A DNA stretch of 33,224 nucleotides from Candidatus Heimdallarchaeota archaeon (GTDB taxonomy: Archaea; Asgardarchaeota; Heimdallarchaeia; Heimdallarchaeales; Heimdallarchaeaceae), in contig BPTO01000016.1 in assembly GCA_023705985.1 (NCBI GenBank), positions 1-33,224 on the forward strand, written 5' to 3'. Position numbers and translations under genes: made by a program. The notes below the pieces were generated by a model that had not been told where the DNA came from, ran no database searches, and worked only from the letters and a program-made list of their open reading frames with translations. This document shows positions 3 to 26,789 of the stretch, piece by piece. Each line of letters starts with the position of its first letter. Positions within the stretch are counted from its first letter, which is position 1.

Positions 3-3000
3 TTTAGGTATGTCAATGTCACAGTTCTTGCAGGAGTAGGGACAACATACAAATTAACCTATAGTAAGCTTAACTATGTAGACATGCGAGTATCTACCGC
101 TTTGTGTGCATCTGTAGGAACATTAGCTAGTTCAGTAACAGGAGAACACGATTTACAAGCACTACTAGGAACAGTAGATGGGCGAATTGTAGCTTTTAAA
201 TATGATGAAACTGTTGATGAATTCATTCTTTCATGGGATTCGTGGGTAGATGATAGATTTACTCTTGGGACAAACATTTGGGATCTAGAGCAAGTGAAAA
301 CTTTAGGGACTATGCCCATGATTTATGGTTGGACATTTTTAGATACAACAGAATATGCTTTAAAACCTAGCAATCAACCCAAAAGTCAAATAGGTGATAT
401 CGATATCTTCGATTACGATATCGGTTATGTTGATTCAGACCCTTATGCTAATGGAGATTTCGTAGTTAGCACAGTTACTGGAGATGTTTATTTCTTTAAC
501 AACATGTTTGTATATGATGTTGGTAATACTGGTCTTTACTTCAGCCAAATCAACAGTTACGGCAATTACAATGGTTTCAATCTAACTGTCTCATTAATTG
601 AGGTTTCAAATGCATCTAGCGGTCCTGAACTCTTTATAGGCACTTATGATCCTTCGATTTCGAATGTTTATGATGACTGGTATGATGATACTGACACTGA
701 ATCACCTGCTAATCTGCATATATGGTCACAGTCTGGAGGTACTTATTTAGGTCCTGAAACTTTGTACAGTTTCGAAAGTACTGGACAATTAGAAGAACTT
801 CTGAAGAATGCACAATCCATACCTTCAGCTGATGGAATAGACATGGATGGAGATGGAGATATGGACGTAGTAGTATGTATAGATGCATTATACTTGCTGT
901 GGAATATAGGTGATCGCGAGAATCCTGAATATATCCTTGATGCAGATTATTTTGCAGATGTAAATGCTGTACAAGGTAGAAGAAAATTCATGAAGCCAAA
1001 ATTTGTTGAGTTTGATCATGATGGTGATTATGACCTCACTTTAGGTTACTCAAATCGTGTAGGAGCAACGTATTTTGATAATTATGGAACAGCTACTAAT
1101 CCAAAATGGGAAGAAAAGAAGGAATTGCTCAATAATTTAGACTATGAAGCAACAATTAATGTTTATAATTTAACTAGACCTCTTTTCGTCTCATATCTGG
1201 ACTTTAGTATAATGAATACACTTCTGTTTGGAGAAGATTTTATGGATAAATACATATATTTCTTCATGTTTGATGTGTTTACAAACGATATTCATTACTT
1301 CCTTATTGATTATGAAACACAAACCTCTTACATGGTCGCGACTTACCCTCTTATTTCACGTGTAGAAATAAATTCATTCAGATCAGAAGAAATAGAATAT
1401 TATGAAGAAACATATACTTCTCGTAATTTCGGTTTTAGAGCAATAGAAAGCTGGTCAACAGCATTAGAACTACTAGAGTGGACTATGACTGTTGAAACTG
1501 CAGATTTGGATGAAGATGGTTCAGGAGAAATTATTGTAGGAGACTATGATAATAATATCTACATCTTTGAACATATGCTCAATAATACTTACAAACGGGC
1601 GTTTCGCTCTCCAGATGTTGTTCAATATTATGCAACAGATGAAACGCCATACGCTTGGGATCAATTCGGAGGTTATACAGGTGAATTTAATCAAACAATC
1701 TGGAATCATGTCTCTCATATTCTTGTTGATGTTGACCTTGATGGTGATGGCTACTTAGAACTAGTAGCATTGGCAGGTACAGTATTTTATATCTTTGAAG
1801 TTGTATATGACGAATTCAGTGGTAAAATTATTGATGATACCTATCAACTAGTTCACCGTTTTGATTGTTTAAGAAGTGATGAAGGACCTTATATGATTGA
1901 AGCAGGATTAATTGATCCTGTAGGATTAACTTGGGCTAAAGATCTCGATCACGATGGCTACCGCGAGATACTTGTGGCTTTTGAATCACAATTATTCGTT
2001 TATGAACCTTACAATGATGAGTTTTACGAAGTTTTTGGACAAGTTAATACACCAACGGGACATTACAACTTAGCAGGTAACAGTAGAGCATATCCTGATA
2101 TGACAATCGCAGGTATCTTAGTTGCTGATACAAACCAAAATGGTTGGGAAGAAATAATCGTATATGGAGAAATAGATGATGCAACCGTACCTTATGATAT
2201 GGGTTATATTGCAATTATAGAAACTAATATTCACGGGTATCAGATAATCTGGCAAGCTCCTACGGAAGTCGTTGCTAGTAACAAAATCTATACTGTAGAA
2301 ATTGCAGATCAAGACTATGACGGTCAACTAGAGGTTATCATAGGTGGAGAGAAAGGCATATCAATTTGGGAATATCATGGAGATGCTGATGGGGATTTAT
2401 ATGAACAGATTAATGTCATAACAGGGTCCATGAATTACCCAATAATGCAATCGAATTCTCTTTTCGGAGAGAACAGTTTTTACGGAATTGATAATCAAAT
2501 TAGGCAACGTTCTCATGATGTCATTCAATTTGTTTACGGTACCACTAATCATTCATATATAGCAGTATGGACAGAATGGTATAGCATAGGGAGTATATAT
2601 GTTATTTACCAGGCTATGAGTAATGATGGACAAAACTGGTTATATAAAACGATGCTTCCAATAGCTTCTATTGATGATCAATTATTCCCATCATTAACAC
2701 AAACTACAAATGGTGATCTTTATCTTATATGGACTGCTTACCTGGCTATGGGTTCTTCTGGTATGATCTATGGGATTCCATGTCTTAAATCAACAAATTT
2801 TGGTGATACATGGGTATCAGAAGGAACACTAAATATGACAGAAATATTAGGACCTAATCCTTATCGTTCGCCTACAGTTTTTGCACATGATAACGATGGA
2901 ATTGGTTACTCATTCATCTATAAAAACAGTACTCATTCTATTCCTTATTATGGTTGGCATTTCAGTAATGGTACGGACATTGTTGCTAGACCAATTGAAG

Positions 3001-6000
3001 GTCTTAAAGAATTCAATGTCAATGGAATTGATATAGTTGGACATCCTAATAACAGTCCTTCACAAGGTTTCACTTTTGCAGGAGCAATGAGTGCTAATCG
3101 TCCAGGAGAAAACAAAGACGATTACGATATTTGGTTCTTTGAAGCAGATATCAGTTTCAATTTGACTATTGAGGCAAGGAAATTAGTAGAAAGTCCTGCA
3201 GTTGAACATACACCTAGCATTGCTTATATACTTACAGGGACGAATCCACTGCTAATAAGTTATGATGCAGCAGGATATAAACAGGCTATGCCAACAGCTT
3301 ATGGTTTAGTTTCATCTGATTATCTTGAATGGTCAGAGCCAGATATTCTAAATGTATACCCTGATTATCTTGCTAGAAATCCAATATCTGAGGCAATGTA
3401 TTTCAAAAATCAACTGTCATGGAATCTCAATAGTCATGGCTTTAGAGCTCCTAAAGTTACAGCAACATATGATGGAAAATTTGTCGTATTAACAAAATTA
3501 GATATTAAAGGATCAGTTCCTTTAGGAGCAAGATATTGGGAAGATTTCCTTTTCCAAGAATATAGTCTAACAATAACCGATTTCACTGCTTTTGGTAAAG
3601 CTACCGATATAGCCGTAGGCGACACTGATGGGGATGGTTTGAATGAAATTTTAGCTGCAGACGGACCATATGCTAGACTATTTGAGATTTTTGAAACGAC
3701 TATAATGAATACTAGATATCAATCCAAGTGGAAGAGCCAAGAATACGAGAACCCAGTATCAGATGTGTCGATATATGATACTAATGGTAATGGTTTCCCT
3801 GAAATGATCTTTAGTGTCCAAGGAGAAGATGTCTATGTCTTTGAGGTTCTGGATCTTTCTAAACCTATTGTTGATTTAGAAGTTCCCAAACAAATCTTTA
3901 CAGCTATTGAATCCAACACTGCTGTTTATCTGACAAACACTCCAATAGATCTTAATGATGATGGTATCACTGATTATGTTTGTGGAATGGATGATAATAT
4001 GCTTCATGGAATTCTTGGAAATAATGGTACCGTTTTATGGAGTACAGATCTTGGAGCTACTACTAGATTTACGTTTGAAGGACTCTATGAGTATAATAGT
4101 CAGCTAATTGTTATTTACGATAATAACGATATCTCATGGATTAACAAAAGAACTGGTAGTCTCATTGATATTTTTACAACAGGAGATAGCTATGTTGGCG
4201 GTGCTACAATCTATGATGTAAACGGAGATGGAACAGAGGATATAATAAGCAAAGATTCTTCTTCCAACGAAATCCGTATATACAGTGGAGTTGATGGAGA
4301 CATTTTTGAATCTGGTGCTATTGTTGAAGCTTCTGTTGAAGTATATGGAATGGATATTGCTTTTAATAATTCTATACCACTCATAATCGCGTCGCTATCC
4401 AACGATACAATAGTAGCTCTTGATATTAACTTAAATGTTCTATGGACATTTGCACTGGATACTGATTCATCTTCACAAGTATATGCCAAAGATTTAGACG
4501 CAAATAACTATTCTGAAATATTCATTCCTTCATCTGAAAGTGTTTTGCTACAAATCAATGGTTCTCGTCTCTGGAACATTAGTACTGCATTTACACCAAC
4601 TCAAGTAGTTTTCTATGATATAAATGAAGATGGGATACTTGATATTATAACAACAGGAGGAGAATCATTCACAGGTTCTGCTTACGATGGTGAAACAGGA
4701 TCAATTCTGTGGACAAGAGGACTCTGGGAATATATCGGCTTGGAGGTTGCACTAGGCACCGTAGGAGATGATCCTGTATTGTACTATTCATATTATGACA
4801 TAAATGAAGAAGTAGGTGTAGTATGTGTTAATATAGATGGATCATTAAGATGGGTTATTGAAACAGGTGTTTTTCCAGTTGGGTATACAGTTGGGGTAGT
4901 TGCTACTGAGATCAATGGACAAAACGGAGTGATTTTCGGTACTTATGAAGATAAAGTGATTGGAGTAACCTCAACAGAGTTTACGCCTGTAGGACAACCA
5001 TATGCAAAGATGGCACCTGCAGAATTTCCAAGCAATATGGAATATGAGAGAATGTTTTCTGGAATAGGGGAAATAAATCCAGATACAGTTGTTGTAGCTA
5101 ACTTTAATGGTTTAGATTATCCAACTCTATTCTACATAGAAAATAACACTCATGCAGTCTGGCGCGATATTCAGACAGGAGAAATATACAGTAAAGAAAC
5201 GATAAAAGACATAGGAAACATAGTAAAATGTGTCGCTGCTGATCCTGAAGGAAAAGGTTACCCAACATCAGTATACTTCTATACAGATTTGTTCTACCTA
5301 GGAGTAATACATGTTACTACAATGGTAGTAGAGACGAATGGAGTATTAGTAGGTAAAACTAATTCTATTCATGAGCTTCTAGCTTATAGTCTAAGTGGTG
5401 TAGATGGAGACAATCTAATTATTACAACAATATCAACCACAAACGTGAATTACGTCCGTGTCTATAAACCAAATGCTGGAGACCAAGCATGGTTCGACAG
5501 TATTGGTGAAGATGTAGGAAAGCAGCTGTTAGCAGGCAACTTAAAGGCTACAGAAAATATTCTTGTTGTAGTTTCTGATTCTACCATAATCTTCTACTTG
5601 AAAGATGGAGCTGTTGAGAATTCTCTAGATAGTAATTACTTTGGAAGAGTTGCAATAGGATATACTAAAAAGAGTGATACTTATAAAACAGTCTTTATAC
5701 ATGAAGGGTTCGATATACAGAATTTTGATGTAGAAATCGGTACACATACAAGTTGGGAAGCTAATTTAGAATCTGATGCAGAAATTTTTGATATGGTTAT
5801 AGGTGAAATGCAAGGAGATGAATACTATGAAGTCTATGTTACGCAATCAGGTATAGGTATAATGGCTTTTGACGTAAATGCTAATTTATTGTGGTATCAT
5901 ATTCATAGTTCATTCTTATCAACCAAACTAATCCTTTACAGAGATCCAAACTATGGAGAAGCGGTTTTATTAGCCACGGATTACCACAGAGTGTTTATGT

Positions 6001-6299
6001 ACGATTCCGAAGCTGATATTATGAAGGAAGCAACTGTTGATTTATTCGATCAGATATTGTTTATTGGAACTTCATGTAATGAAACTCTAACAGATGAAGG
6101 TATTTTCGTCTTCTTAGCAGGCAATACGTTCTATGGTCACAATCTTGAATCTGTACATGGTGCCCTAGCTGAATCGTTAGATGAATCAACAATAGATTGG
6201 GTATCTCTCCGAAGAATTGGTGTACCTGCATTAGTGATGCTTTCAATAACAATTGCGGCAATGGTACTCATTTCAAGAAAGAGCAAAGTAAGAGTATAA
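3..6299 (+). CDS. Giant C-terminally anchored surface protein with FG-GAP/VCBS-type Ca-binding repeats and a sialidase/BNR-like central region (5' end beyond window)
   Basis: Frame stays open upstream of the listed ATG to the window edge (FRYVNVTVLAGVGTTYKLTYSKLNYVDMRV...). Many DxDxDG-type motifs (DMDGDGDMDVVV, DLDEDGSGEIIVG, DVDLDGDGYLELVA, DTDGDGLNEILA, DVNGDGTEDIIS, DINEDGILDIIT). C-terminal TM plus basic tail (VPALVMLSITIAAMVLISRKSKVRV). Confidence 0.85.
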   Translation, partial: FRYVNVTVLAGVGTTYKLTYSKLNYVDMRVSTALCASVGTLASSVTGEHDLQALLGTVDGRIVAFKYDETVDEFILSWDSWVDDRFTLGTNIWDLEQVKTLGTMPMIYGWTFLDTTEYALKPSNQPKSQIGDIDIFDYDIGYVDSDPYANGDFVVSTVTGDVYFFNNMFVYDVGNTGLYFSQINSYGNYNGFNLTVSLIEVSNASSGPELFIGTYDPSISNVYDDWYDDTDTESPANLHIWSQSGGTYLGPETLYSFESTGQLEELLKNAQSIPSADGIDMDGDGDMDVVVCIDALYLLWNIGDRENPEYILDADYFADVNAVQGRRKFMKPKFVEFDHDGDYDLTLGYSNRVGATYFDNYGTATNPKWEEKKELLNNLDYEATINVYNLTRPLFVSYLDFSIMNTLLFGEDFMDKYIYFFMFDVFTNDIHYFLIDYETQTSYMVATYPLISRVEINSFRSEEIEYYEETYTSRNFGFRAIESWSTALELLEWTMTVETADLDEDGSGEIIVGDYDNNIYIFEHMLNNTYKRAFRSPDVVQYYATDETPYAWDQFGGYTGEFNQTIWNHVSHILVDVDLDGDGYLELVALAGTVFYIFEVVYDEFSGKIIDDTYQLVHRFDCLRSDEGPYMIEAGLIDPVGLTWAKDLDHDGYREILVAFESQLFVYEPYNDEFYEVFGQVNTPTGHYNLAGNSRAYPDMTIAGILVADTNQNGWEEIIVYGEIDDATVPYDMGYIAIIETNIHGYQIIWQAPTEVVASNKIYTVEIADQDYDGQLEVIIGGEKGISIWEYHGDADGDLYEQINVITGSMNYPIMQSNSLFGENSFYGIDNQIRQRSHDVIQFVYGTTNHSYIAVWTEWYSIGSIYVIYQAMSNDGQNWLYKTMLPIASIDDQLFPSLTQTTNGDLYLIWTAYLAMGSSGMIYGIPCLKSTNFGDTWVSEGTLNMTEILGPNPYRSPTVFAHDNDGIGYSFIYKNSTHSIPYYGWHFSNGTDIVARPIEGLKEFNVNGIDIVGHPNNSPSQGFTFAGAMSANRPGENKDDYDIWFFEADISFNLTIEARKLVESPAVEHTPSIAYILTGTNPLLISYDAAGYKQAMPTAYGLVSSDYLEWSEPDILNVYPDYLARNPISEAMYFKNQLSWNLNSHGFRAPKVTATYDGKFVVLTKLDIKGSVPLGARYWEDFLFQEYSLTITDFTAFGKATDIAVGDTDGDGLNEILAADGPYARLFEIFETTIMNTRYQSKWKSQEYENPVSDVSIYDTNGNGFPEMIFSVQGEDVYVFEVLDLSKPIVDLEVPKQIFTAIESNTAVYLTNTPIDLNDDGITDYVCGMDDNMLHGILGNNGTVLWSTDLGATTRFTFEGLYEYNSQLIVIYDNNDISWINKRTGSLIDIFTTGDSYVGGATIYDVNGDGTEDIISKDSSSNEIRIYSGVDGDIFESGAIVEASVEVYGMDIAFNNSIPLIIASLSNDTIVALDINLNVLWTFALDTDSSSQVYAKDLDANNYSEIFIPSSESVLLQINGSRLWNISTAFTPTQVVFYDINEDGILDIITTGGESFTGSAYDGETGSILWTRGLWEYIGLEVALGTVGDDPVLYYSYYDINEEVGVVCVNIDGSLRWVIETGVFPVGYTVGVVATEINGQNGVIFGTYEDKVIGVTSTEFTPVGQPYAKMAPAEFPSNMEYERMFSGIGEINPDTVVVANFNGLDYPTLFYIENNTHAVWRDIQTGEIYSKETIKDIGNIVKCVAADPEGKGYPTSVYFYTDLFYLGVIHVTTMVVETNGVLVGKTNSIHELLAYSLSGVDGDNLIITTISTTNVNYVRVYKPNAGDQAWFDSIGEDVGKQLLAGNLKATENILVVVSDSTIIFYLKDGAVENSLDSNYFGRVAIGYTKKSDTYKTVFIHEGFDIQNFDVEIGTHTSWEANLESDAEIFDMVIGEMQGDEYYEVYVTQSGIGIMAFDVNANLLWYHIHSSFLSTKLILYRDPNYGEAVLLATDYHRVFMYDSEADIMKEATVDLFDQILFIGTSCNETLTDEGIFVFLAGNTFYGHNLESVHGALAESLDESTIDWVSLRRIGVPALVMLSITIAAMVLISRKSKVRV

Positions 6300-14367: not shown

Positions 14368-15174
14368 ATGGATGAATATATGAAGAAAAATCTCAAACGA
14401 TGGAATGAAACAACTCAAATGCACGCGAAGTCCAAAGAATATGATCTTGAAGGTTTCATAGAAGGTAGAAACAGTCTCTCTCCAATAGAGCTTAAAGCAA
14501 TGGGTGATGTTTCAGGAAAAACTCTTCTCCATTTACAATGCCAATTCGGGATGGATACCTTATCTTGGGCTAGATTGGGAGCTAAAGTGACTGGAATAGA
14601 TTTTTCAGATGTAGCAATAGATTTAGCAAATTCTATCAATGAAAAATTAAAATTACCTGCTAAATTTATCTGTACAAACATATATGATCTTCCTGAAGTT
14701 CTAGATGAACAATTTGATGTCGTTTTCACTTCTTATGGTGTTCTAACTTGGCTACCAGACATCAAAAAATGGGCAGAAATTGTTTCCAAGTATCTCAAAC
14801 CAGGTGGAATGTTCCTTATTGTAGAATTTCATCCTTTTACAGGAGTATTTGATGATGAACATCCATCAGAGTTAGTTTACAAATATCCTTATTTTCATAC
14901 AAAAGATCCAATGCATTTCAAATCTGAGTATACTTATACTGACTCAGAGACATTAATAGAAAATGTAGATATGTATGAATGGCAACATAGTTTTTCAGAT
15001 ATCATAAATTCTTTAATAAACGCTGGTCTTACAATTCTACAAGTGGAAGAATATCCTTTTACTTGCTTTAATCAATTCCCTTTTGTGAAGAAATGCGAGG
15101 ATGGATTCTGGCGAATAGAGGATGATAAATATGAGATTCCACTAATGTTTTCAATAAAAGCTGCTAAAAAGTAA
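14368..15174 (+). CDS. Class I SAM-dependent methyltransferase
   Basis: Motif I-like GKTLLHLQCQFGMDTLSWARLGAKVTGIDFSDVAIDLA; FDVVFTSYGVLTWLPDIKKW; LKPGGMFLIVEFHPF. Confidence 0.88.
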   Translation: MDEYMKKNLKRWNETTQMHAKSKEYDLEGFIEGRNSLSPIELKAMGDVSGKTLLHLQCQFGMDTLSWARLGAKVTGIDFSDVAIDLANSINEKLKLPAKFICTNIYDLPEVLDEQFDVVFTSYGVLTWLPDIKKWAEIVSKYLKPGGMFLIVEFHPFTGVFDDEHPSELVYKYPYFHTKDPMHFKSEYTYTDSETLIENVDMYEWQHSFSDIINSLINAGLTILQVEEYPFTCFNQFPFVKKCEDGFWRIEDDKYEIPLMFSIKAAKK

Positions 15175-15258: not shown

Positions 15259-15924
15259 ATGTCGTATATCCTAATGAGAATATTTGAATCCTCCCCTAAT
15301 AGATATGATAAGGGAATAGATATTCTCACATTAGGTAAAATGAGTGGAGTCTACAATAGAGTTATTGAACATATCAAAAAGGATTATCAAGTCCTTGATA
15401 TAGGGTGTGGAACTGGAAGATTAGCATTACAAGCAGCTCTAAAAGGTGCAAAGGTTAAAGGTATAGACATCAATTCTCAGATGTTAGATATAGCTAGAAA
15501 GCGTTGTAAAGAATTAGATTTATTAGAAAAAGTCGATTTTGTTGAAATGGGAGTTGCAGAGTTAAATTCAGAATCGGATAATAGTTTTGATATTGTGATG
15601 AGCACGTTATGTTTTTCAGAATTAAGTGATTTTGAGATCGATTACGCACTAATAGAAATCAGTAGGATTCTAAAACAAGATGGACTTCTAGTGATTGCTG
15701 ATGAAAATAAATCCAATAAAACTATCAAGAGAATTATAAATTTCTCTGTAAAATTACCTTTGATTATTATTACTTATTTAATATCACAAACAACAACTAA
15801 GGCTGTAAAACAGCTTGAAAAAAGAGTAGAAGAGAAAGGTTTGAAATTGATATCAATTAAAAAAACATTCTTGGAGAATTTTATTGAAATAATAGCTCAA
15901 AAGGAAGGAAGCACTAATGAGTAG
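15259..15924 (+). CDS. Class I SAM methyltransferase resembling corrinoid protein-associated methyltransferase CpaM
   Basis: MSYILMRIFESSPNRYDKGIDILTLGKMSGVYNRV N-terminus; VLDIGCGTGRLALQAALKGAKVKGIDINSQMLDIA; overlaps the start of the downstream HgcAB-like gene (ATGAGTAG). Confidence 0.8.
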   Translation: MSYILMRIFESSPNRYDKGIDILTLGKMSGVYNRVIEHIKKDYQVLDIGCGTGRLALQAALKGAKVKGIDINSQMLDIARKRCKELDLLEKVDFVEMGVAELNSESDNSFDIVMSTLCFSELSDFEIDYALIEISRILKQDGLLVIADENKSNKTIKRIINFSVKLPLIIITYLISQTTTKAVKQLEKRVEEKGLKLISIKKTFLENFIEIIAQKEGSTNE

Positions 15925-17128
15925 AAAATATATCAGTTGGGTAAGTTACGTCATAATTAATGTTCTAGAAACTTTTATTCGGTTCTTTCCATTTCCAACA
16001 AAAGTTGGAATAAAACAAATAGGGAAACCAAATGAAGACTCACTTGTTTTTCTAACAGTTAATTATCATCTAACAGTTTTTAGAGTAAAAAGAGCCTTGA
16101 GGGGAGTTGATTGCTACTTACTTGTAGCAAATAGTAAAGGTGTAAATGTTTGGTGCGCAGCAGCTGGAGGCCTTTTTACGGATCATGATGTTATTTCAAT
16201 AATTAAAACTAGTGGAATTGAAAAGAGAGTTAAGCACAAAAAAGTGATACTTCCACAATTAGCAGCTGTTGGAGTAGAACCAAAAATTATCAGTGAAAAA
16301 ACTGGTTGGAAAGTAATCTGGGGTCCTGTTTACGCAACTGATATTCCAAAATTTCTCGAAAAGAATTTTAAAAAAGATTTATCTATGAAAACAGTAAATT
16401 TCAACATATTACAAAGAGTTGAGATGGCTGTAGCTTGGGCTTTTCCTATATCTTTGGTTATGGCAATTCCGTTTTTCATTTTTTGGTTAAAAGAAACACC
16501 CTATTTATTTGCTGAAGTATGGGTTATGGCTTTGATTATATTTATTACATTTCCGATCTATGGTGATTGGTTATCAAATTATAAGAAAGGACGAGTTTCG
16601 AAGAACATTAGTAAAAAGTTAATCTTAATCTGTATTTTCTGGATGATTGGAATACTACCATTTGTTATAACTCTCACTCTTTCAGAAAATAGGGATTGGA
16701 CTCTGTATGTTAAATGGATTGTAGTTGTTCTAATCACCGTATTAGTTCTAGTTCTTGATTTGATGGGAAGCACTCCTGTTTTCAAAAGTGATACTCATGA
16801 GGATAGGTTGTTGAGAGTAGTACTCGATAAGGAAAAATGCAAAGGAACCAATATTTGTGCAGACGTTTGTCCAAGAAACTGTTACGAACTTGATAGAGAA
16901 AGAAAAGTAATGACAATGCCACATCCTGAGCGCTGTGTTCAATGTGGAGCATGTATTGTTCAATGTCCATATGATGCGATTTACTTTGAAAACACAAAAA
17001 AAGAAATAATAACTCCTGATATAGTAAGAAAATATAAGCTTAATCTAATGGGAAAGCGTGAATATTGCTGTTTACCCTGTGCAATAAGTGATAATATAAT
17101 CAATAGTAAGCATGAAAAAGATACATAA
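15917..17128 (+). CDS. HgcAB-like fusion protein: corrinoid-binding domain, TM segments, ferredoxin domain, C-terminal CC motif
   Basis: HgcA cap-helix-like NVWCAAAGGLFT and ILPQLAAVGV; TGWKVIWGPVYATDIPKFLE; about four TMs; CKGTNICADVCPRNC and CVQCGACIVQCP cluster ligands; terminal REYCCLPC. Confidence 0.85.
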   Translation: MSRKYISWVSYVIINVLETFIRFFPFPTKVGIKQIGKPNEDSLVFLTVNYHLTVFRVKRALRGVDCYLLVANSKGVNVWCAAAGGLFTDHDVISIIKTSGIEKRVKHKKVILPQLAAVGVEPKIISEKTGWKVIWGPVYATDIPKFLEKNFKKDLSMKTVNFNILQRVEMAVAWAFPISLVMAIPFFIFWLKETPYLFAEVWVMALIIFITFPIYGDWLSNYKKGRVSKNISKKLILICIFWMIGILPFVITLTLSENRDWTLYVKWIVVVLITVLVLVLDLMGSTPVFKSDTHEDRLLRVVLDKEKCKGTNICADVCPRNCYELDRERKVMTMPHPERCVQCGACIVQCPYDAIYFENTKKEIITPDIVRKYKLNLMGKREYCCLPCAISDNIINSKHEKDT

Positions 17129-24857: not shown

Positions 24858-26789
24858 ATGAAAAGACAATCAAAACAGTCTAAAATTACAATTAAAAGCG
24901 TTTTATGTGTTTTATTGATAATTGGTGGTATAGGTACGTTCTCAAGTATGAGCGTAAATGGTACAACTGTATCTTATGAACTCCCCTCTTACTCCTCCCT
25001 GATTCCACATGCTCCTATTGAAATTTCTTCTGATAGTGAACTTGAGGTTTTTCCAGGCTCTGGAACAGCTGAAGATCCTTATGTTATTGAAGGATATAAT
25101 ATTACAACATCAAGTTCAAGTGGAATTTATATTTATGGTACAACCAAATTCTTCATTGTTCGAAACTGTTATGTTGACGCAGAAAACTATGGAATTTTAA
25201 TTTGGGATGTAACTTATGGAACAGCAACTATTGAGAATAACATGTGTATCAACAACGGATATGGTATCTATCTAGACTATTCCGGTTCTTCTGGTTCTAC
25301 CATTTCCAACAACACTTGTAGCTACAACGACGTGTATGGTATCTATCTTTGGTATTCTTCTGGTTCTACCATTTCCAACAACACTTGTAGCTACAACAAC
25401 AACTACGGTATCTATCTTTGGTATTCTTCTGGTTCTACCGTTACTGACAACACTTGTTACCACAATAACAACTACGGTATCTATCTATGGTATTCTGCTG
25501 GTTCTAACGTTAACCTCAACACTTGTTACCACAATAAAGACTATAGCATCTGTCTAGCCTTTTCTGGTTCTTCTACTGTTTCCGACAACACGTGTAATAG
25601 CGACTACGGTATTGGTCTTTTTGATTCTGGTTCTTCTACTGTTGCCAACAACAATTGTAATAATAACCACTGGGGTATCTATCTAGACTCTTCTGATTCT
25701 TCTATAGTTTCCGACAACGATTGTAGCTACAACCACAACTTTGGCATCTATCTTTACAATTCTTCTTCTTGTTTTCTTTCTTACAATCTTTTTCAAGAAA
25801 ATGGTGAATATGGAATAGATTTACACTCTTCTTCTGCTAATAATCTTATTCACAATAATACCTTTGTAGACAATAATCTTGGTGGAACTTCCCAGGGGCA
25901 TGATGATGGAGCTAACAACTATTGGTATGACTCTACAATACAAGAGGGAAACTATTGGTCAGATTGGTCAGGAACAGGTTCTTATTCTATTGATGGTGTT
26001 GCTGGAGCATTCGATCTTTATCCTCTTGATGAACCTACTGTAAACCTTGGTCCCCCTGTTATTACAACTATTATCCACTCTCCCTCTACCCCTAAAGAAC
26101 TAGATCCTGTCGATATCTATACTACAGTTACTAGCCTTTATGGTGTGCAATCAGTTACTCTCCATTACAGGATCAACGGTGGAACATGGATAGAAGATAG
26201 TATGACTCTTATAAGCGGTGATCTTTACAGTGGTACTATCGGTCCCTTTCCAGTTGATTATATTATTGAATACTATATCACAGCCATAGATAACTCTGTT
26301 AATCATAATGAAGTTATAGAAAATAATAACGGGCAATACTATAACCTATTCGTAGTTTCTTCTGATGTTATTGGTCCTATTATTACTAGTATTATTAATT
26401 CTCCCTCTACTCCAACTGAACTAGATACTATTAGTATCAGCGCTACCGTTACAGACTCTTCTGGTGTGCAATCAGTTACTCTTCATTACAGGATCAACGG
26501 TGGAACATGGCTGACAATCAGTATGACTCTTGTAAACGGTGATCTTTACAGTGGAACTATCAGTTCCTTTGCAGTGAGTGATACTATCGAATATTACATT
26601 AGTGCACTAGATAGCTCTATCAGTCATAATTTGGCAATCAACGATAATTCTGGGGAGTATTACTCATTTACTATACACTCTTCTGGGGATGAAACAAGGA
26701 CTGTAATGTTCTCTCTACTCCTACCCGTGATAACTGTTCTATTCTTGGGTTTTGGACTAGTGGTGCTAAAACGAAGAAAGAGTGTATAA
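24858..26789 (+). CDS. Surface protein: NosD-like right-handed parallel beta-helix, two Ig/Fn3-like modules, C-terminal TM anchor
   Basis: Signal-like N-terminus; 23-aa repeats GIYLWYSSGSTISNNTCSYNNNY; two SVTLHYRINGGTW modules; LLLPVITVLFLGFGLVVLKRRKSV anchor. Confidence 0.88.
   Translation: MKRQSKQSKITIKSVLCVLLIIGGIGTFSSMSVNGTTVSYELPSYSSLIPHAPIEISSDSELEVFPGSGTAEDPYVIEGYNITTSSSSGIYIYGTTKFFIVRNCYVDAENYGILIWDVTYGTATIENNMCINNGYGIYLDYSGSSGSTISNNTCSYNDVYGIYLWYSSGSTISNNTCSYNNNYGIYLWYSSGSTVTDNTCYHNNNYGIYLWYSAGSNVNLNTCYHNKDYSICLAFSGSSTVSDNTCNSDYGIGLFDSGSSTVANNNCNNNHWGIYLDSSDSSIVSDNDCSYNHNFGIYLYNSSSCFLSYNLFQENGEYGIDLHSSSANNLIHNNTFVDNNLGGTSQGHDDGANNYWYDSTIQEGNYWSDWSGTGSYSIDGVAGAFDLYPLDEPTVNLGPPVITTIIHSPSTPKELDPVDIYTTVTSLYGVQSVTLHYRINGGTWIEDSMTLISGDLYSGTIGPFPVDYIIEYYITAIDNSVNHNEVIENNNGQYYNLFVVSSDVIGPIITSIINSPSTPTELDTISISATVTDSSGVQSVTLHYRINGGTWLTISMTLVNGDLYSGTISSFAVSDTIEYYISALDSSISHNLAINDNSGEYYSFTIHSSGDETRTVMFSLLLPVITVLFLGFGLVVLKRRKSV
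25263..25560 (+). repeat. Tandem coding repeats (mainly 69-bp period) encoding beta-helix coils
   Basis: ggtatctatctttggtattcttctggttctacc... units starting at 25338 and 25407; first unit 25263 spaced 75 bp. Confidence 0.85.

Follow-up and report, generated by a model that had tools for sequence, protein, structure and literature searches.

The locus encodes two overlapping genes

We analysed a window of 33,224 nucleotides from a Candidatus Heimdallarchaeota archaeon (contig BPTO01000016.1), where two overlapping genes on the forward strand encode a methyltransferase and a corrinoid-ferredoxin fusion protein. The upstream gene (15259..15924, 221 aa) matches the NCBIfam profile NF043040 ('corrinoid protein-associated methyltransferase', CpaM) over its full length with 261.3 bits (E = 6e-78, curated cut-off 180), while the downstream, HgcAB-like gene (15917..17128, 403 aa) matches NF043039 across residues 14–356 with 434.3 bits (E = 4e-130, curated cut-off 285). 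Both families have already been named by NCBI, and the window pair is a member of them. A first-pass annotation had placed both reading frames at these positions, with the second start codon inside the end of the first gene, and had called the upstream product CpaM-like; both hold. The 8 bp shared by the CpaM stop and the HgcAB start (ATGAGTAG, 15917..15924, forward strand) likewise agree with its proposal that the two genes are translationally coupled, which we infer from this overlap.

The corresponding locus of a Heimdallarchaeota MAG (L076) is 92% identical. A second, unrelated SAM methyltransferase lies directly upstream of CpaM (14368-15174), and does so in this nearest relative as well. 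A downstream GNAT gene was rejected as an apparent partner, being common only to the window and its closest relative. Elsewhere, the window encodes a 2071-aa FG-GAP-repeat protein (84-6299), probably a surface protein, and a 643-aa NosD-like right-handed beta-helix protein with a CBM56 match (24858-26789).

CpaM resembles UbiE and Coq5

CpaM contains a DIGCGTG SAM motif and an extra hydrophobic helix (residues 155-176). Its AlphaFold model (pLDDT 85.5) found Coq5 and small-molecule methyltransferases as fold matches in the PDB, and the protein is predicted to be a class I SAM-dependent methyltransferase with a Coq5/UbiE-like fold. In a tree with other methyltransferases, CpaM fell on one side with moderate support (83/87). 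Its similarity to arsenite methyltransferases is weak and UbiE/Coq5 are closer. A literature search found no biochemistry of any CpaM.

The HgcAB-like protein links a corrinoid domain to a ferredoxin through four membrane helices

We modelled the 403-aa protein with AlphaFold from a 50-sequence alignment (pLDDT 85, pTM 0.83). The model has a Rossmann-type corrinoid domain (residues 31-148), four transmembrane helices (164-285) and then a ferredoxin domain, which is the arrangement that the first-pass annotation had read from the sequence. Pfam agrees at both ends (CdhD, PF03599, E = 2e-19; Fer4, E = 2e-9), and the HgcAB model 9a0b ranks first among the PDB fold matches, followed by the corrinoid iron-sulfur protein CFeSP (2.1 A, 127 residues). 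The corrinoid-binding domain (residues ~19-151, 15971..16369) also matches the CFeSP gamma subunit 2h9a by sequence (E = 4e-21; CFeSP rmsd 2.1-2.4 A), placing it within the HgcA/CFeSP corrinoid fold. Its N(V/I)WC cap helix (NVWCAAAGGLFT, residues 77-88, 16145..16180) supplies C80, the equivalent of the cobalt-ligating HgcA Cys93. This cysteine is kept in all 61 pairs examined from the window's clade (clade 1), and also in clade 2, described below, and in true HgcA. The residues that follow differ: the window protein reads NVWCAAAGG, without GK(G), versus NVWCAAGKG in true HgcA (L216-L219).

The four helices (164-189, 191-210, 227-255 and 261-285; 16406..16771) were delineated by hydropathy and the model, and the ferredoxin domain (16815..16987) by alignments and the Fer4 match; all of these features lie on the forward strand. 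Fe-S motif I is noncanonical, C308-x5-C314-x3-C318-P-x2-C322, where the usual second cysteine is absent and C322 is found in 93% of the 61 clade-1 pairs. Motif II is canonical (C340, C343, C346 and C350). A family-specific basic tail (TPDIVRKYKLNLMGKRE, 17012..17062, forward strand) replaces the HgcB cysteine tail; P367, R371, K374 and N376 are invariant in the alignment of 50 relatives, and no cysteine beyond residue 350 is conserved among the 61 clade-1 pairs. The 'terminal CC' proposed earlier as an HgcB-like feature therefore does not stand as a family trait: the window's CC is at residues 384-385, which is not the terminus, and a late CC occurs in only 4/61 members. In one relative (G054:C250, loci L032/L144), the first Fe-S motif has an in-frame TGA as its seventh codon, exactly at the Cys314 equivalent (CKGDRF*EDVCP), which could be selenocysteine, a mutation or an error.

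CpaM is the near-constant partner of the HgcAB-like protein

Using only the HgcAB profile, we searched 85,488 species and obtained 80 loci, spanning Heimdall and Baldr archaea, Thermococcaceae, Methanococcoides, Desulfobacteria, Chloroflexi, Aminicenantes, Calditrichota, Atribacteria, Spirochaetes and others. At 76 of the 77 loci that were testable (not cut by a contig edge), CpaM lies immediately upstream, the sole exception being a Chromatiales locus (L147) without CpaM. The commonest spacing in these relatives is a 4-bp start/stop overlap. Within the phylum, CpaM exceeds its cut-off in 36/36 genomes whose HgcAB-like protein does so (36 of 232 genomes), compared with 5/196 genomes that have no HgcAB-like protein above cut-off, and several of these five are fusions or contig edges (Fisher, 3e-37). 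Sequence distances of the two proteins are correlated (Mantel r = 0.78; 0/2000 permutations as high), indicating that the pair travels together. Recurrent adjacency, on which the earlier proposal of a dedicated SAM methyltransferase feeding a membrane corrinoid protein depended, is thus present, and the pairing supports that proposal.

No other neighbour gene recurs across lineages in clade 1, where neighbours are unrelated between lineages, and no relatives were found on viral contigs. The CpaM-HgcAB cassette is self-contained, and its acceptor is therefore probably not a linked protein. There is a small excess of PEMT/ICMT genes near clade-1 loci (5/111). The window's own genome carries a second HgcAB-like gene on another contig (C333, L002:943-2103), 47% identical, with no CpaM on that 2.3-kb contig; it may share the genome's one CpaM.

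Gene fusions and helix number support a donor role for CpaM

CpaM is also physically joined to HgcA. A second clade (clade 2), below the family cut-offs, accounts for 58 loci in a set of 60, of which the remaining two (L171 and L172) are triple fusions. Most of the 58 encode CpaM and HgcA in one frame (~555 aa), usually with a separate HgcB after it. Single chains of ~645 aa with CpaM, HgcA and HgcB occur in three genomes of the phylum (L065, L071 and L072), and a bacterial CpaM-HgcA fusion is found in Zixibacteria (L222:832-2412), with a corrinoid motif, GINVWCAAGAGKF, that resembles true HgcA. The order is always CpaM, HgcA, HgcB. These fusions provide independent support for a methyltransferase that serves the corrinoid protein, and from them it follows that CpaM very probably methylates the HgcA cobalamin from SAM.

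The number of membrane helices changes with fusion. Single-chain HgcAB proteins end their membrane domain after the fourth helix, whereas unfused HgcA, both in clade 2 and in true mercury methylators, continues with one more helix at its C-terminus. Among proteins in which we found the reference motif, a transmembrane helix after it is present in 3/108 fused HgcAB versus 24/25 unfused HgcA. With an even helix number, the fused proteins have their ferredoxin on the corrinoid side.

A sister clade lies within arsenic operons

Clade-2 loci, which are mostly in family f19, frequently contain arsenic genes. An ArsR regulator is present in 27/58 and an ACR3 arsenite efflux gene, ~50 bp upstream and in the same orientation, in 22/58; some loci have ArsC-type arsenate reductases and one has an ArsM-like methyltransferase. 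ACR3 is also found near the triple fusion L172. A clade-2 ACR3 protein scored 257 bits against TIGR00832, just below the cut-off of 283, and 'ACR3 family' is therefore the safe wording. As controls, ACR3 was found in 0/8 clade-1 loci of the same genome kind, in 0/12 random 15-kb regions and in 0/80 named clade-1 loci. The enrichment is significant (Fisher, 3e-10 versus the 80 named loci and 5e-4 versus the 20 other controls). Although clade-2 loci that come from related genomes do not count as independent, the link recurs in three families, with ArsR in f18, f19 and f28 and ACR3 in f18 and f19. Clade-2 HgcB tails are of the GCGCLW...CCG type, like the cysteine tail of true HgcB. True hgcAB genes are themselves linked to arsR, acr3, arsC and arsM (PMC7438021, PMC10349881); our literature search found no report of the fused CpaM form within ars operons. 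For the fused clade only, arsenic is our leading candidate acceptor. In the f19 ars loci, HgcB is followed by a protein of 100-130 aa (DIYVPLDACACEWSQFM...; L157:7032-7349, L173:9149-9535 and 12 more clade-2 loci); two tested copies had no Pfam match and one had no NCBIfam match.

The window's clade differs: 0/88 clade-1 loci are linked to ACR3, and arsenic genes were not found there. A solitary cassette without metal-resistance genes could instead transfer its methyl group, after the same donor step, to an organic molecule or a lipid, with the basic tail binding either the membrane surface or an anionic substrate. The UbiE/Coq5-like CpaM with its hydrophobic helix and the invariant arginine and lysine of the tail are consistent with such an acceptor, but biosynthetic genes are not linked either, and the closest relatives, whether characterised or linked, act on metals and metalloids or occur with them. 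We consider an organic or lipid acceptor possible, though doubtful.

The ars operons also bear on the order of the two steps. In true HgcAB, SAM and not methyl-THF is the methyl donor; it methylates Co(I) of HgcA to give a Cys-ligated methylcobalamin, and the purified proteins are methylated without a separate methyltransferase (PMC11588087). Since true HgcAB takes its methyl group from SAM unaided, CpaM might do something else: HgcA would be methylated directly by SAM, HgcAB would release a mono-methyl product, and CpaM would add a second methyl group. The arsenic genes of the sister clade and the weak similarity of CpaM to arsenite methyltransferases would suit this sequence of events. It is nevertheless unlikely; UbiE/Coq5 are nearer to CpaM, CpaM is present at all in only 1/43 genomes with true HgcA, and the fusions and the order CpaM-HgcA-HgcB suit a donor step at least equally well. 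Read most simply, the constant pairing and the fusions suggest that CpaM carries out or accelerates the methylation of cobalt.

The window protein is neither true HgcA nor true HgcB

The window protein scored 158.6 bits against the HgcA profile NF040863 (curated cut-off 275) and 42 bits against the HgcB profile NF040864 (curated cut-off 99), and is neither true HgcA nor true HgcB. As a comparison, we examined the phylum of a Desulfobacterales MAG, where HgcA exceeds its cut-off in 53/199 genomes. CpaM as a neighbour of true HgcA was rejected: 0/35 loci have a convincing CpaM, the candidate at L252 being a generic methyltransferase. A separate true HgcA is encoded elsewhere in 6/49 genomes with an HgcAB-like protein, so the two are paralogous systems.

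The homologous fold, with the HgcAB model as top match, and the retained cobalt-ligand cysteine would be expected if the window pair methylated mercury with CpaM as methyl donor. We regard this as very improbable. Besides the two scores below cut-off and the coexistence with true HgcA, mercury methylation in strain ND132 needs the HgcB tail cysteines (as cited in PMC11588087), and cultures of Methanococcoides methylutens and Pyrococcus furiosus, which have fused HgcAB, produced no methylmercury above controls (PMC5893877); mercury is therefore an unlikely substrate. The window's clade, with no arsenic genes, no conserved HgcB tail cysteines and an altered first Fe-S motif, probably makes no methylmercury.

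We rooted a tree of the corrinoid domain with CFeSP. True HgcA formed one clade (100/98) beside the fusions and inside the CpaM-associated lineages, a nesting that this tree favours with 95-96 bootstrap. With the membrane domain added, true HgcA, the fusions and the Zixibacteria protein (L222) fell into one split (97/88). A tree uniting all CpaM-associated rows was not rejected by the AU test (p = 0.27), and the nesting of true HgcA is therefore best treated as provisional.

Discussion

Considering the computed fold and domain order, the pairing, the fusions and the invariant cobalt-ligand cysteine together, we propose that the two genes probably encode a corrinoid methyltransferase that is bound to the membrane and depends on SAM. 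Its ferredoxin domain would maintain the HgcA cobalamin as Co(I), and CpaM would bind SAM and methylate the Co(I). From the resulting Cys-ligated methyl-Co(III), the methyl group would then move to an acceptor for which SAM alone is a poor methylating agent. The advantage over direct methylation by SAM would be that the methyl group could depart as a radical or carbanion. The donor step, with CpaM doing or speeding the methylation of HgcA cobalamin by SAM, is well supported but unproven, and the direction of transfer, the Co(I) chemistry and the acceptor are more conjectural. Against the donor mechanism count the cap helix without the GK of true HgcA, the second HgcAB-like gene of the same genome on its short CpaM-less contig, and L147. 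Hg(II) is most likely not the acceptor in the window's clade. Since the pair has no linked gene for an acceptor protein, and since the sister clade is located in arsenic operons, our best guess is a metal(loid) or another small molecule.

A broader scenario, which we put forward tentatively and with somewhat more doubt than confidence, is that CpaM and HgcA together are ancestral to the whole HgcA family, as a corrinoid methyltransferase that was fed by SAM and acted on arsenic or another metalloid. Mercury-methylating HgcAB would have arisen by loss of CpaM, and the window pair would represent a third branch, widely transferred, that has a modified Fe-S cluster and an acceptor of its own.

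What HgcAB does natively, and what donates its methyl group, has been asked ever since the genes were discovered; SAM was shown to be the donor only in 2024. A SAM methyltransferase genetically and physically joined to HgcA agrees with this donor and offers new handles for biochemistry, while the arsenic-operon fusions provide a concrete, directly testable hypothesis for the native substrate of the HgcA family. The family also warns against taking fused HgcAB genes as markers of mercury methylation. In the literature searched, we found no published work on the CpaM/HgcAB-like pair and no description of the fusions, the ars-operon clade, the helix parity, the altered cluster, the basic tail or the contrast with true HgcA.

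Among known systems, NF043039 and NF043040 are the closest: the two proteins of the window score above the curated thresholds, their genes are ordered as in relatives, and NCBI gives these families no function. HgcA and HgcB (NF040863/NF040864; 9a0b) share the corrinoid fold, the cobalt-ligand cysteine in NVWC, the membrane helices and two Fe-S motifs, and a common SAM chemistry is plausible. Unlike them, the window protein is one chain with four rather than five transmembrane helices, falls below both of their cut-offs and has CpaM as a near-constant partner. Only its motif II is canonical, whereas HgcB has two canonical CxxCxxCxxxCP motifs, and the essential HgcB tail cysteines C73, C94 and C95 (ND132) have no conserved counterparts in the window family. 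The CFeSP gamma subunit (AcsC/CdhE) has a similar corrinoid domain fold (rmsd 2.1 A), but it has no membrane domain and is set apart in the tree at 100/100. CFeSP takes its methyl group from a methyl-pterin, with a TIM-barrel methyltransferase. The UbiE/Coq5 class I methyltransferases share the fold and SAM motif of CpaM, which is distinguished by its own N-terminal signature (ILMKILESxPxRYDxGI), the hydrophobic helix and its strict link to HgcA-type proteins.
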